From Pseudomonadota bacterium (lineage in GTDB: Bacteria; Pseudomonadota; Gammaproteobacteria; Burkholderiales; Burkholderiaceae_C): a stretch of DNA of 12,529 nt. This document shows, piece by piece, positions 7,760 to 12,529 of this stretch. The notes under the pieces are model-generated. The model made no database searches. It was given only the letters and a program-made list of their open reading frames with translations, and was not told the DNA's origin. The DNA lies in contig JAFECV010000014.1 of the NCBI GenBank assembly GCA_018241985.1, forward strand, positions 1-12,529, read 5' to 3'. Numbering within the stretch: the first letter of the stretch is position 1; every line of letters begins with the position of its first letter. The translations under genes and the position numbers were made by a program.

Positions 7760-9151
7760 CTACCCCTGCACGCGATCCAGCTTGCGAGCTTGCCCCGCCG
7801 CCATCCGCCCGGCTGACACGGCCATGTGCTCGACCTTCTCGTTCAGGATCTCTTCCGGCATCTCGGCCTCGATCCAGGTTTCGTTGTTCAGCCCCGTCGC
7901 CAGCCGCTGCTCGTCGAGCTCGCCGGTCCAGCGCGCCACGACGATCGTCGCGACGCCGTTGCCCACCAGGTTGGTCAACGCGCGCGCCTCCGACATGAAG
8001 CGGTCGATCCCGAGGATCAGCGCCAAACCGGCCACCGGAACATGGCCCACCGCCGACAGCGTGGCGGCGAGCACGATGAAGCCGCTGCCGGTGACGCCCG
8101 CCGCGCCCTTGGACGTGAGCAGCAGCACGGCCAGCAGCGTGATCTCCTGGGTCAGCGTCATCGGCGTGTTGGTCGCCTGCGCGATGAACACCGCCGCCAT
8201 CGTCAGGTAGATCGACGTGCCGTCGAGGTTGAACGAATAGCCGGTCGGGATCACCAGGCCGACGCAGGTCTTCTTCGCGCCGAGGTTCTCCATCTTTTCC
8301 ATCATTCGCGGCAGCACCGACTCCGAGGACGAAGTCCCGAGCACGATCAGCAGCTCCTCTTTGATGTACTTGACGAACTTCCAGATGCTGAACCCGTTCA
8401 GGCGCGTGACGATTCCCAGCACGACGAACACGAAGATCAGGCAGGTCAGGTAGAACGTGCCCATCAGCTTGCCCAACGAGAGCAGCGAACCGATGCCGTA
8501 CTTTCCGATCGTGAACGCCATCGCGCCGAATGCACCCAGCGGCGCGACGCGCATGATCATGCCGACGATCGAGAACAGCACGTGCGAGGTCTTCTCGATG
8601 ACGTCGAACACCAAGGTGCCGCGTCCGCCGAATTTGTGCAGCGCGGCGCCGAACAGCACCGCGAACAGCAGCACCTGCAATACCTCGCCGTTGGCGAATG
8701 CACCGACCGCGGTATTCGGGATCACGTCCATCAGGAATTCGACGGTCCCGTGCATCTTGCCCGGGCCGGTGTAGGCCGCGATGGCGGACGTATCGATCGT
8801 CGAGGCATCGACATTCATGCCGGAGCCCGGGCGCAGCAGGTTGACGATGACGAGCCCCACGATGAGCGCGATCGTGCTCATGATCTCGAAATACAGCAGC
8901 GCCAGCCCGCCGGTCTTGCCGACCTTCTTCATGTCCTCGACGCCGGCGATGCCGACGACGACGGTACAGAAGATGATCGGGGCGATCATCATCTTGATCA
9001 GCTTGATGAAGCCGTCTCCGAACGGCTTCATCTTCGCCGCGAACTGCGGGTAGAAGTGGCCCAGGATCACGCCGATGACCACCGCAACCAGCACCTGGAC
9101 GTAAAGCGATTTGTAGAGCGGCCTCTTGGCGGCCGCAGACGCATCAGTCAT
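7760..9151 (-). CDS. dctA: C4-dicarboxylate transporter DctA
   Basis: 463-residue inner-membrane sodium/proton-coupled symporter of the DAACS (glutamate-transporter-like) family, importing succinate, fumarate and malate. Transmembrane segments run from about residue 15. Family signatures are in order: the first re-entrant loop TSSSE (273-277) with [11 protein letters not shown] after it, [19 protein letters not shown] (307-325) in the substrate-binding helix, [17 protein letters not shown] in the second hairpin, and [19 protein letters not shown] followed by ATIVVARW (to 408). Length and motifs match DctA rather than the glutamate branch GltP. The hydrophilic C-terminal tail is rich in Glu and Met. 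GAGGAGA precedes the ATG at 9151. No DctBD two-component genes are in the window, and I could not identify a sigma-54 promoter in the 96 bases up to the phaB terminator. acuI follows on the same strand. Confidence 0.97.
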
Positions 9152-9302: not shown

Positions 9303-10040
9303 TCAGCCCATGTGCAGGCCGCCGTTCACCGAGAAGTCAGCGCCGGTCGAATAACCGCCCTCGTCCGAGGCCAGCCACGCGATGATCGACGCGATCTCCT
9401 CGGGCGTGCCCAGGCGCCGGACGGGAATGGTCGCGACGATCTTGTCGAGCACCTCCTGGCGGATGGCCTTGACCATGTCGGTGCCGATGTAGCCTGGGCT
9501 CACCGTGTTCACCGTCACGCCCTTGCCGGCGAGTTCCTGCGCCAGCGCCATCGTGAAGCCGTGGATGCCGGCCTTCGCGGTCGAATAGTTGACCTGGCCG
9601 AACTGCCCTTTCTGCCCGTTCACCGAGCTGATGTTGACGATGCGGCCCCAGTTCGCCTCGAGCATGCCGTCGATCACCTGCTTGGTCACGTTGAACATGC
9701 TGTCGAGATTGGTCGACATCACCGCGTCCCAGTCGGCCTTGCTCATCTTGCGGAACTGGCCGTCGCGCGTGATGCCGGCGTTGTTGACCAGCACCGCCAC
9801 CGGTCCGTGCTCCGCCTTCACCTTCTCGAACGCGGCCACCGTCGAATCCCAGTCGCTGACATTGCCGACCGACGCGTGGAACGTGTAGCCCAGCGCCTTC
9901 TGTTCGCCGATCCATTTGACATGGTCGCGGGTCGGGCCGCAGCCGGCCACCACCGTGAAGCCCTCCTTGTGCAGACGCTGGCAGATCGCGGTGCCGATGC
10001 CGCCCATGCCGCCGGTGACGTACGCTGTCTTCTTGCTCAT
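9303..10040 (-). CDS. phaB: Acetoacetyl-CoA reductase PhaB
   Basis: 245-residue NADPH-dependent short-chain dehydrogenase that reduces acetoacetyl-CoA to (R)-3-hydroxybutyryl-CoA, the monomer for polyhydroxybutyrate. The cofactor loop is TGGMGGIG (9-16). NNAGITRD lies at 86-93. The catalytic triad is Ser139 (in NISSVNGQKGQFGQ), Tyr152 and Lys156 (YSTAK). The C-terminus STGADFSVNGGLHMG is nearly that of Cupriavidus PhaB (246 residues), as is most of the body. The start is the ATG at 10040 (MSKKTAYV), backed by a GAGGAG Shine-Dalgarno; an upstream in-frame ATG at 10091 would run through the intergenic palindrome and is rejected. It is last in the phaC - phaA relic - phaB unit and is followed by a strong terminator. 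All catalytic residues are intact. Confidence 0.97.
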   Translation of the reverse strand: MSKKTAYVTGGMGGIGTAICQRLHKEGFTVVAGCGPTRDHVKWIGEQKALGYTFHASVGNVSDWDSTVAAFEKVKAEHGPVAVLVNNAGITRDGQFRKMSKADWDAVMSTNLDSMFNVTKQVIDGMLEANWGRIVNISSVNGQKGQFGQVNYSTAKAGIHGFTMALAQELAGKGVTVNTVSPGYIGTDMVKAIRQEVLDKIVATIPVRRLGTPEEIASIIAWLASDEGGYSTGADFSVNGGLHMG

Positions 10041-10061
10041 GATGTGCTCCTCTGATTTCCG

Positions 10062-10081
10062 GTTGCTATTGAAATAGTAGC
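10062..10081. repeat. Short imperfect palindrome upstream of phaB
   Basis: GTTGCTATT-GA-AATAGTAGC is an inverted repeat with nine-base arms. Its two mismatches become G-U pairs on one RNA strand. It lies just upstream of the phaB Shine-Dalgarno inside a locally AT-richer gap. It recalls small intergenic repeats that I associate with Comamonadaceae (GCTAT...ATAGC type), but only one copy is in this window, so membership in a repeat family cannot be shown. Confidence 0.45.
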
Positions 10082-10152
10082 TATACCCCATTGATCCGTC
10101 TTGGCTGCAGCACGATTTCTTTGAAAATCATGCGCGGCCGCGGCGAATGCCC

Positions 10153-10227
10153 TCAGCGCTCGACGATGAGCGCCGCCTCCATGCCGCCGCCGGAGCGAGC
10201 AGCCGAAACGATGACGATGTCTTCCAT
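10153..10227 (-). pseudogene. phaA: Relic of phaA (beta-ketothiolase) with an internal in-frame deletion
   Basis: A complete 24-codon frame sits exactly where phaA is expected, between phaC and phaB. Its first half, MEDIVIVSAARS, is the N-terminus of an acetyl-CoA acetyltransferase (usual pattern: VIVSAART). Its second half, GGGMEAALIVER and stop, is the C-terminus of the same enzyme (usual pattern: GGGMGVALAVER). Nearly all of the roughly 390-residue protein between them is missing, including all catalytic Cys and His residues. The Shine-Dalgarno GGAGG seven bases before the ATG, the start and the stop codon survive, so a short peptide may still be translated. One position normally Gly in the GGGMG motif is Glu17, suggesting drift. 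It begins 29 bases past the phaC stop. A thiolase from another locus (for example BktB or another PhaA) would have to feed PhaB. Confidence 0.85.
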
Positions 10228-10256
10228 GCGGGATCCTCCATGGGTTGCCATGCAAT

Positions 10257-11969
10257 TCAGGCCTTGGCCTTGACATAGCGGCCCGGCGCCGGCTCGATCG
10301 CCTTGTACTTGCCGTTGCCGTAGGCCTTCGGCGCGGGAATCTTCGCGCCGGCGTGGCCGGCCAGCCAGGTGGACCAGTCGGTCCACCAGCTGCCGGGGTA
10401 TTCCTTGGCGCTGGCGATCCAGTCCTCGACCCGCGGCGGAAACTTGTTGTGGTCCGCGATCCAGTGGCTGCGCTTGTTCTTGGCCGGCGGGTTGATCACG
10501 CCGGCGATGTGCCCGGACGCGCCCATCACGAAGCGCTTCTTGCCCGGCAGCCACTGGGTCGATGCGTAGGCGCCGCCGATCGGAACGATGTGGTCTTCGC
10601 GCGAGCCGTAGATGTAGACCGGCATGTCGACGCGCCGCAGGTCGATCTTCTGGCCGGCGACTTCGGCCTGCCCCGGCTTCACCAGCTTGTTCTCGTGGTA
10701 GGTGTTGCGCAGGTACCAGGCATAGAACGGCCCCGGCAGGTTGGTCGAGTCGCTGTTCCAGTACAGCAGGTCGAACGCCGGCGGGGTTTCGCCCTTCAGG
10801 TAGTTGCCGACCACGTAGTTCCAGACCAGTTCGTTCGGCCGCAGGAAGCTGAAGGTGGACGCCAGATCCTGGCCCTTGAGCAGGCCGCCCTCGCCCATCT
10901 CGAACTCGCGGTACTTGACCATCAGCTCGTCGATGAAGATGTCGAGAATGCCGACGTCGGTGAAGTCGAGCAGCGTGGTCAGGAACGTGGCGCTGGCCAC
11001 CGGCTTTTCGCCGCGCGCCGCCAGCACCGCCAGCGCGGTGCAGAGAATCGTGCCGCCGACGCAGAACCCCAGCGCATTGATCTGCTTCGCGCCGGTGATC
11101 TCGCGCGTCACCGCGATCGCCTTGATCGCGGCGTTGTCGATGTAGTCGTCCCAGGTCTTCTTCGCCAGCGTCGCGTCCGGATTGCGCCAGCTCACGACGA
11201 AGGTGCGGTGGCCTTGCGCCGTGGCATAGCGGATGAACGAGTTGTCGGGCTGCAGATCGAGGATGTAGAACTTGTTGATGCAGGGCGGAATCAGCAGGAA
11301 CGGCCGCTCGTACACCTTGTCGGTCAGCGGCTTGTATTCGATCAGCTGGAACAGCTCGTTCTCGAACACCACCGCGCCCTCGGTGGTGGCGACGTTCTTG
11401 CCGACCTCGAACACGCGCTCGTCGGTCATCGACACATGGCCCTGGCGGAAATCCTGCAGCAGGTTCGCCACGCCGCGCGCGATGCTCTCGCCGTTGGTCT
11501 CGATCGCCTTCTGCTGCGCGTCGGGGTTGAACGCGAGGAAATTGCTCGGCGCCGCCGCCGACAGCCACTGCTCGACCCCGAAACGGACCCGGGCGCGCGT
11601 CTTCTCGTCGCCCTCGATCGCTTCGGCCAGCGCCGTCATCGTGCGTGCATTGAGCAGATACGTGGCCGCCGTGAACGTCGCCAGCGGATTCTTGCCCCAG
11701 GCCTCGGCGCTGAAGCGCCGGTACCGGTCCTTCTTGGCCGCCGACACGCCTTGCATGGTTTCGTTCCACAGCTCGGTCGCGTCGTGCAGGTACTGCTGCT
11801 GCAGTTCCATCAGCCTGGCCGGCGACAGCTTGAAAGGCGCCGCGCCCGGGTCGGCCGTTCCCTGCGTCAGCCCCTGCATCGCCTGCAGCGCCTGGCTCCA
11901 GCCTTCGCTGAACATTTTTTGCAGGTCCGGCGCGGCGTCCGTCTGGGACTGCGAGGTCTCGGGCGTCAT
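10257..11969 (-). CDS. phaC: Class I polyhydroxyalkanoate synthase PhaC
   Basis: 570-residue enzyme that polymerises (R)-3-hydroxyacyl-CoA, chiefly 3-hydroxybutyryl-CoA, at the surface of PHB granules. Cupriavidus PhaC has 589 residues, and the difference is in the variable N-terminal region. The alpha/beta-hydrolase core carries the lipase-like box GFCVGG with the nucleophile Cys303, then Asp459 (in YGSREDHIVP) and His487 (in VMGASGHIAGVINPP), which complete the catalytic triad. WRNPD (262-266) and the C-terminal WWTDWSTWLAGHAG are typical of class I synthases. The ATG at 11969 has AGGAG five bases upstream; the open frame reaches back into the pgeF gene, but that part is not coding. It is first of the phaC - phaA relic - phaB unit. 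A candidate extended -10 promoter lies about 36 bases upstream of the ATG. Confidence 0.98.
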   Translation of the reverse strand: MTPETSQSQTDAAPDLQKMFSEGWSQALQAMQGLTQGTADPGAAPFKLSPARLMELQQQYLHDATELWNETMQGVSAAKKDRYRRFSAEAWGKNPLATFTAATYLLNARTMTALAEAIEGDEKTRARVRFGVEQWLSAAAPSNFLAFNPDAQQKAIETNGESIARGVANLLQDFRQGHVSMTDERVFEVGKNVATTEGAVVFENELFQLIEYKPLTDKVYERPFLLIPPCINKFYILDLQPDNSFIRYATAQGHRTFVVSWRNPDATLAKKTWDDYIDNAAIKAIAVTREITGAKQINALGFCVGGTILCTALAVLAARGEKPVASATFLTTLLDFTDVGILDIFIDELMVKYREFEMGEGGLLKGQDLASTFSFLRPNELVWNYVVGNYLKGETPPAFDLLYWNSDSTNLPGPFYAWYLRNTYHENKLVKPGQAEVAGQKIDLRRVDMPVYIYGSREDHIVPIGGAYASTQWLPGKKRFVMGASGHIAGVINPPAKNKRSHWIADHNKFPPRVEDWIASAKEYPGSWWTDWSTWLAGHAGAKIPAPKAYGNGKYKAIEPAPGRYVKAKA

Positions 11970-12004
11970 GTTGTCTCCTGGGTGACTGCCATCGGGTACG
12001 GACG

Positions 12005-12013
12005 AATTTAGCA
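12005..12013 (-). promoter_or_regulatory. Candidate extended -10 promoter of phaC
   Basis: The minus strand reads TGC-TAAATT, a TGn-extended -10 with a 4/6 hexamer. Transcription would start near 11998, leaving a leader of about 29 bases with the AGGAG site. No convincing -35 is present. An A8 tract (plus-strand T8, 12046-12053) lies about 40 bases upstream and may act as an UP-like or bending element. This is inference from sequence. Confidence 0.33.
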
Positions 12014-12093
12014 CCCTTGCCGCCCGATGCGGAATGCAGGCCCGATTTTTTTTGTTCGTTGCGACGCGCAAGTTACGCGCAGCCTGAGGCAGG

Positions 12094-12529
12094 TCAATCC
12101 ACCCATATGCACGCCGCCATGCGACCGCTGCCTCCCTGGGATCGCTGATCGCGCCGGTACGAATGAAAGCGCAAGGGATTGCCGACGGTGCACCAGCCGG
12201 CGCTGCCGTCGTTGCCATGCACGCCGGCCACGCCGAGCGCAGCCAGGCGCTGGCGCGCCAGCGCCGGCAGGTCGGCCAGCCAACGGTCGGCGCGGCCGGC
12301 CTTGAAGCACACCGACGCGGCCGGGTCGTGCGCTTCGAAAGCCGCCTTCACCTCGCTGCCCACCTCGAAGCGCTCCGGGCCGATGCAAGGGCCCAGCCAT
12401 GCGAGCAGTTCGCCTTTCCCCTTGCCCTTGTCGGCATCACGATCGACGGCAGCGCGCAGCGCCGCCACCGTCGCTTCCAGCACCCCGATCCCGTCCGTGC
12501 CGACCAGGCCGCGCCAGCCCGCGTGGGCC
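12094..12529 (-). CDS. pgeF: PgeF/YfiH laccase-domain protein (peptidoglycan editing factor), C-terminal part
   Basis: The last 144 codons are present and the N-terminal part lies beyond the right edge. The fragment opens in AHAGWRGL, the metal-site motif of the YfiH/PgeF family. It continues with WLGPCIGPERFEVGSEV, ADLPALARQRLAALGV, GWCTVGNPLRFHSYRRD and a final GRMAACIWVD. All are family hallmarks in the right order. Members were long annotated as multicopper polyphenol oxidases; E. coli YfiH is now known to edit misplaced amino acids in peptidoglycan precursors, and other members act on purine nucleosides. A lysine/glycine run (DKGKGKGE) and a slightly longer loop after SYRRD look specific to this protein. 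The gene ends 124 bases before phaC on the same strand, with no terminator seen. PgeF next to phaC is an arrangement I recall from other Burkholderiales. Confidence 0.93.
   Translation of the reverse strand, partial: AHAGWRGLVGTDGIGVLEATVAALRAAVDRDADKGKGKGELLAWLGPCIGPERFEVGSEVKAAFEAHDPAASVCFKAGRADRWLADLPALARQRLAALGVAGVHGNDGSAGWCTVGNPLRFHSYRRDQRSQGGSGRMAACIWVD

Follow-up and report, generated by a model that had tools for sequence, protein, structure and literature searches.

The window analysed here, a stretch of 12,529 nt that makes up the entire contig C55, comes from a fragmented draft genome (3,128,957 bases in 820 contigs, 89.86% completeness). Its minus strand carries, in this order, phaC, a 75-nt frame, a 112-nt spacer, and phaB (Table 1). 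The 75-nt frame translates as MEDIVIVSAARSGGGMEAALIVER followed by a stop, i.e., 24 sense codons and a stop codon, in which the first 12 codons of PhaA are fused to the last 12, the 3' part starting right behind the CI of the motif CIGGGM. A GGAGG likewise precedes the phaA ATG of the nearest relative, genome G001, and the ATG of phaB at 10040 has a Shine-Dalgarno-like sequence of its own. An earlier sequence-only reading had described a phaA scar inside an intact phaC-phaB operon, with Shine-Dalgarno, ATG, and stop retained. Both descriptions held, as a frame with the two ends of PhaA occupies the phaA position, with GGAGG 7 nt from its ATG and its stop 112 nt from phaB.

Table 1. Features of the phaC-phaB region, in window coordinates
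Feature	Position	Strand	Evidence or remark
phaC, class I PHA synthase	10257..12152	-	TIGR01838, 710.8 bits (cut-off 622.65); PhaC_N and Abhydrolase_1; coordinates are those of the frame used in the search; the actual start probably lies further inside
GGAGG, Shine-Dalgarno-like	10235..10239	-	7 nt upstream of the stub ATG
phaA remnant, 24 codons and stop	10153..10227	-	Sequence and comparison with G001
5' remnant, first 12 codons of phaA, MEDIVIVSAARS	10192..10227	-	0/12 residue differences to L073
Deletion junction CGGCG	10188..10192	-	Present at both ends in G001
3' remnant, last 12 codons of phaA and stop, drifted	10153..10191	-	Versus G001: G to E, V to A, A to I
Spacer from stub stop to phaB, 112 nt	10041..10152	-	Equal length in G001
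phaB, acetoacetyl-CoA reductase	9303..10040	-	TIGR01829, 374.8 bits (cut-off 302.1)

Judged by NCBIfam cut-offs, a class I phaC and a downstream phaB on the same strand are present as expected of a phaCAB operon; a full-length phaA is not, with 24 codons remaining of 392. The catalytic Cys, His, and Cys all fall within the missing stretch, and an active PhaA is not encoded here. A consensus-match scan of 9950-10350 returned one terminator-like site, on the plus strand, and no promoter-like site. The stub frame stays open for 538 codons upstream, crossing phaC in a different frame (10153-11769, minus strand), so a mechanical list of open reading frames buries the stub within a long spurious one. 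Part of the spacer is 75% like an intergenic-looking stretch on a different contig (G000:C234:3386-3472) and contains a GCTATT...ATAGC inverted motif; possibly this is a dispersed repeat.

The missing stretch and its breakpoints

In all six other genomes of the genus the phaC-phaB gap spans 1,315-1,317 nt, versus 219 nt here, and is filled by a phaA of about 392 codons, intact in five and frameshifted in one (G003). The sequence-only reading had proposed aligning the locus with relatives, and would have given way had the short frame lacked a thiolase counterpart there; the relatives instead carry a full phaA with matching ends at this position, and the breakpoints could be defined against G001. 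The G003 gene (L093, G003:C16:182268-183442) is split by a one-base deletion; this could be another inactivation event, or else an error in the sequence of a draft whose contamination is 6%. G001 is the nearest relative, with PhaB 97% and PhaC 91% identical; among named sources, the closest PhaB matches come from the Burkholderiaceae metagenome genome FW106-02_bin.10 (91%) and from Polaromonas (87%).

We also compared a wider set of 109 loci, partly the best 80 matches of a search. This set contains duplicates of at least two genomes (L010/L096 and L044/L107), and the locus itself (L090) was excluded from it. Matches to phaC and phaB on the same strand were found in 87 of these 109 loci; in the remaining 22, phaC or phaB was absent from the available stretch or the two lay on opposite strands. 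A PhaA match stood between phaC and phaB in 80 of the 87, three of which (L062, L065, and L087) have 2.5-3.3 kb between the two genes and so hold more than phaA. The seven loci with no PhaA match have gaps of 28-178 nt, and these contained no stub-like sequence, the best match to either 12-residue end being 5/12.

Between phaB and an alcohol-dehydrogenase-family gene, the window also carries a dctA-type C4-dicarboxylate transporter gene (7760-9151, minus strand), with no match in the 16 kb over which G001 is collinear. Relatives of this gene occur in 3 of the 109 loci of the wider set (partly best 80 matches): 1.7-2 kb downstream of phaB in L062 and L077, and directly behind phaC in L099, where the available stretch has no phaA match.

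Relative to G001, exactly 1,104 nt (368 codons) are missing, and both flanks are collinear. The two ends of this stretch in G001, CACCGGCGTCGGCAAG and CATCGGCGGCGGCATG, are identical at 13 of 16 positions and stand in the same codon register. Within the shared CGGCG the crossover cannot be placed, frame points 35-40 giving an equal best score. Comparing the first with the last 200 nt of G001 phaA, we found eight pairs of 16-mers with at least 13 matches, all in phase; these overlap and reduce to two independent repeats, at distances of 1,104 and 993, one of which is the junction repeat. With just two of them, no preference for in-phase repeats can be established, and G001 serves only as a proxy for the ancestral sequence.

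These breakpoints suggest a course of events. The ancestor would have had an ordinary phaC-phaA-phaB cluster containing two imperfect in-register repeats, one around ACC GGC GTC GGC AAG close to the start of phaA and one around ATC GGC GGC GGC ATG close to its end. Replication slippage or short-homology recombination between the repeats, which we infer to be the mechanism, would have removed the 1,104 nt together with all catalytic residues, and would have left phaC and phaB untouched and under continued purifying selection. The dN/dS values to G001 are 0.21 for phaC (573 codons) and 0.07 for phaB. Because the repeats already stand in the same codon register, the kept frame needs no selection for non-polarity. 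Such selection, one of the options raised earlier, is thus superfluous, all the more as phaB begins 112 nt away with its own Shine-Dalgarno-like sequence.

Drift in the remnant and thiolases elsewhere in the draft

The two halves of the stub have fared differently. In the 3' part, Glu occupies a column where all 89 relatives whose C-terminus is complete have Gly; a second column has Ala against Val in 88 of the 89, and a third has Ile, seen there in none of them (duplicate genomes and G001 are counted among the 89). Its 12 residues differ at three positions from the closest sequence in a set of 72 full-length relatives; among the 72 themselves, duplicates kept, the same distance is 0, 1, and 2 in 65, 6, and 1 cases. 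The first 12 residues, on the other hand, are identical to those of the nearest of the 72, the PhaA of L073. Across the full 24 residues, four differences separate the stub from its nearest relative, and one of the 72 is equally isolated. Its dN/dS of 0.75, against 0.03-0.25 in eight neighbouring genes, is weak evidence, being drawn from only 24 codons with the two joined ends of G001 as the yardstick. An undrifted first half next to a drifted second half counts against a decaying pseudogene, as even decay should affect the two alike, although 12 codons are few. On balance, the changes in the last 12 codons point to a real deletion under relaxed constraint more than to a working gene joined wrongly, and suggest, as far as sequence comparison goes, that the frame is not the product of assembly collapse.

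A separate origin of the 3' part, as a copy from another thiolase, was considered and set aside: an exact degenerate search for GGGMEAALI (CTN leucine codons only) across the draft and the six genus mates found the pattern at the stub itself, with no further site in the draft and none in the six mates, and hence no donor.

A PhaA-type thiolase was not found elsewhere in the draft. The best full-length match to G001 PhaA, at 47%, is a thiolase on contig C677, and a 149-residue piece of another draft thiolase reaches 56%. A thiolase fragment at the end of contig C287 was rejected as the missing phaA body, since 3-oxoadipyl-CoA thiolase models fit it best (below cut-off, as a fragment). The C677 thiolase passes the NCBIfam BktB subfamily model NF006552 (650 bits, cut-off 565) and falls below the BktB equivalog NF042999 (578.4 versus 725 bits), so its product is named BktB-like only. 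Its closest solved structure is that of BktB (4nzs), and an alignment read by eye shows the catalytic motifs NRLCSSG, GHPIG, and CIGGG. A same-strand phasin gene (Phasin_2) precedes the thiolase gene by 72 nt, and the pair is conserved between the draft (L162, G000:C677, 1600-3288) and G001 (L163), where the thiolases are 96% identical. Among the thiolase loci compared, counterparts at 91-96% identity occur in five of the six genus mates; as these mates keep phaA, the BktB-like gene is not a new acquisition.

Phasin, PHB depolymerase-type, and PHB_acc_N families were found in the draft. PHB_depo_C had three matches there (C123:4180-4734, C1:1039-1641, and C806:3637-4197) versus one in G001. 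A further thiolase class, represented by locus L141, is present in all six mates and in none of the draft thiolases, and was either lost from the organism or not assembled; among its loci (L141-L145 and L150), the copies of the five other mates are 78-90% like that of G001. Since this class is missing from the draft as well, the absence of PhaA from the draft proves little.

Alternative explanations and the preferred reading

Had the organism a full phaA whose two ends were joined by the assembler, the stub would be an artefact, and a draft this fragmented and incomplete, together with the multi-copy nature of thiolases, gives that idea some footing. We nevertheless consider it unlikely, given that the exact junction repeat in G001 is only about 5 nt, the 3' part has a residue absent from 89 relatives, and the missing phaA body is nowhere else in the draft; usual assembly k-mers are far longer than 5 nt. 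That a PhaA-type gene moved and now sits in an unassembled part of the genome is quite improbable. The incompleteness of the draft and the missing thiolase class of all six mates are in its favour, but each of the six has a single PhaA-type gene (at least 78% identity), at the pha locus, and no second copy. We infer that the unassembled part holds no other PhaA copy.

The 24-residue frame might also have been kept for use, as a translated peptide or a translational spacer, given its Shine-Dalgarno-like sequence, ATG, open frame, and stop, and its first 12 residues shared with L073. Little credence can be given to this, as the last 12 codons have drifted, including at the otherwise invariant Gly, phaB starts 112 nt further on, behind a Shine-Dalgarno-like sequence of its own, and the seven phaA-less phaC-phaB gaps hold no similar frame; the small peptide suggested earlier is thus not supported, although the first 12 residues are undrifted. 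A constructed in-frame deletion strain, for which NcoI, BamHI, and NotI sequences near the stub had been noted, with the remark that chance makes such sites common in GC-rich DNA, has next to no probability. The NcoI site CCATGG, just before the gene, is common to G001; the NotI site GCGGCCGC after the gene reads GCGGCCGT in G001, one base apart; and the BamHI site GGATCC lies at a 2-nt indel between the draft and G001. With these comparisons, a junction in native repeats without any linker, and a genome that is a fragmented draft, an engineered deletion is very unlikely and was rejected.

We therefore favour a natural phaA pseudogene stub formed by deletion between short repeats, with the BktB-like thiolase as probable backup (probability about 0.8). 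Under this reading, acetoacetyl-CoA for PHB would come from the phasin-linked BktB-like thiolase encoded elsewhere in the genome, which probably replaces PhaA. The search for bktB or another phaA that had been proposed thus yielded the former type of gene and not the latter, and the earlier statement that precursor supply must depend on another thiolase is right in that such a thiolase exists and too strong in its "must", dependence being only likely. A more far-reaching version, rather doubtful at present, is that supply moved to the phasin-linked thiolase, that this enzyme, co-produced with a granule protein, now sets the flux, and that the polymer has shifted towards an odd-chain (3-hydroxyvalerate) copolymer; if true, this would be a natural counterpart of an engineered phaA-to-bktB swap.

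The loss of phaA is unusual to see, yet an ordinary kind of gene loss. Its value lies in the origin of a phaA-less phaC-phaB cluster with the scar still readable, consistent with a deletion between in-register repeats that left the neighbours undisturbed. It also provides a testable prediction, that the phasin-linked BktB-like thiolase suffices for PHB synthesis, and a caution that GC-rich genes can gain in-frame scars without selection or engineering.

Relation to known pha clusters

The phaC1-A-B1 cluster of Cupriavidus necator, as described in PMC3734047, has the same order of phaC, (phaA), and phaB, with a class I synthase and an acetoacetyl-CoA reductase; it differs in that phaA here is a 24-codon stub without catalytic residues. 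That source reports phaA, bktB, and H16_A0170 as major participants in P(3HB) synthesis, and as bktB and H16_A0170 participate besides phaA, a second thiolase can contribute; the corresponding role of the BktB-like thiolase here is, by comparison, a prediction from sequence.

PMC8231600 shows phaPBA clusters and cases of bktB close to pha genes. These resemble the C677 pair in that phasin and ketothiolase genes stand together, and differ in that the thiolase here is BktB-like and phaB remains at the phaC locus. Among the literature matches listed, no title or opening line of an abstract describes a natural phaA deletion scar, and further reports may exist beyond these. The abstract of PMC8231600 places phaA in the genome of all 194 strains of Burkholderia sensu lato, whereas no phaA was found in this draft. 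Ketothiolase-less pha clusters are presented for the same group, with gene loss or late entry offered as explanations (PMC8231600). The cluster studied here likewise has no ketothiolase gene, but its remnant and breakpoints are visible, so that the direction, loss, is clear.
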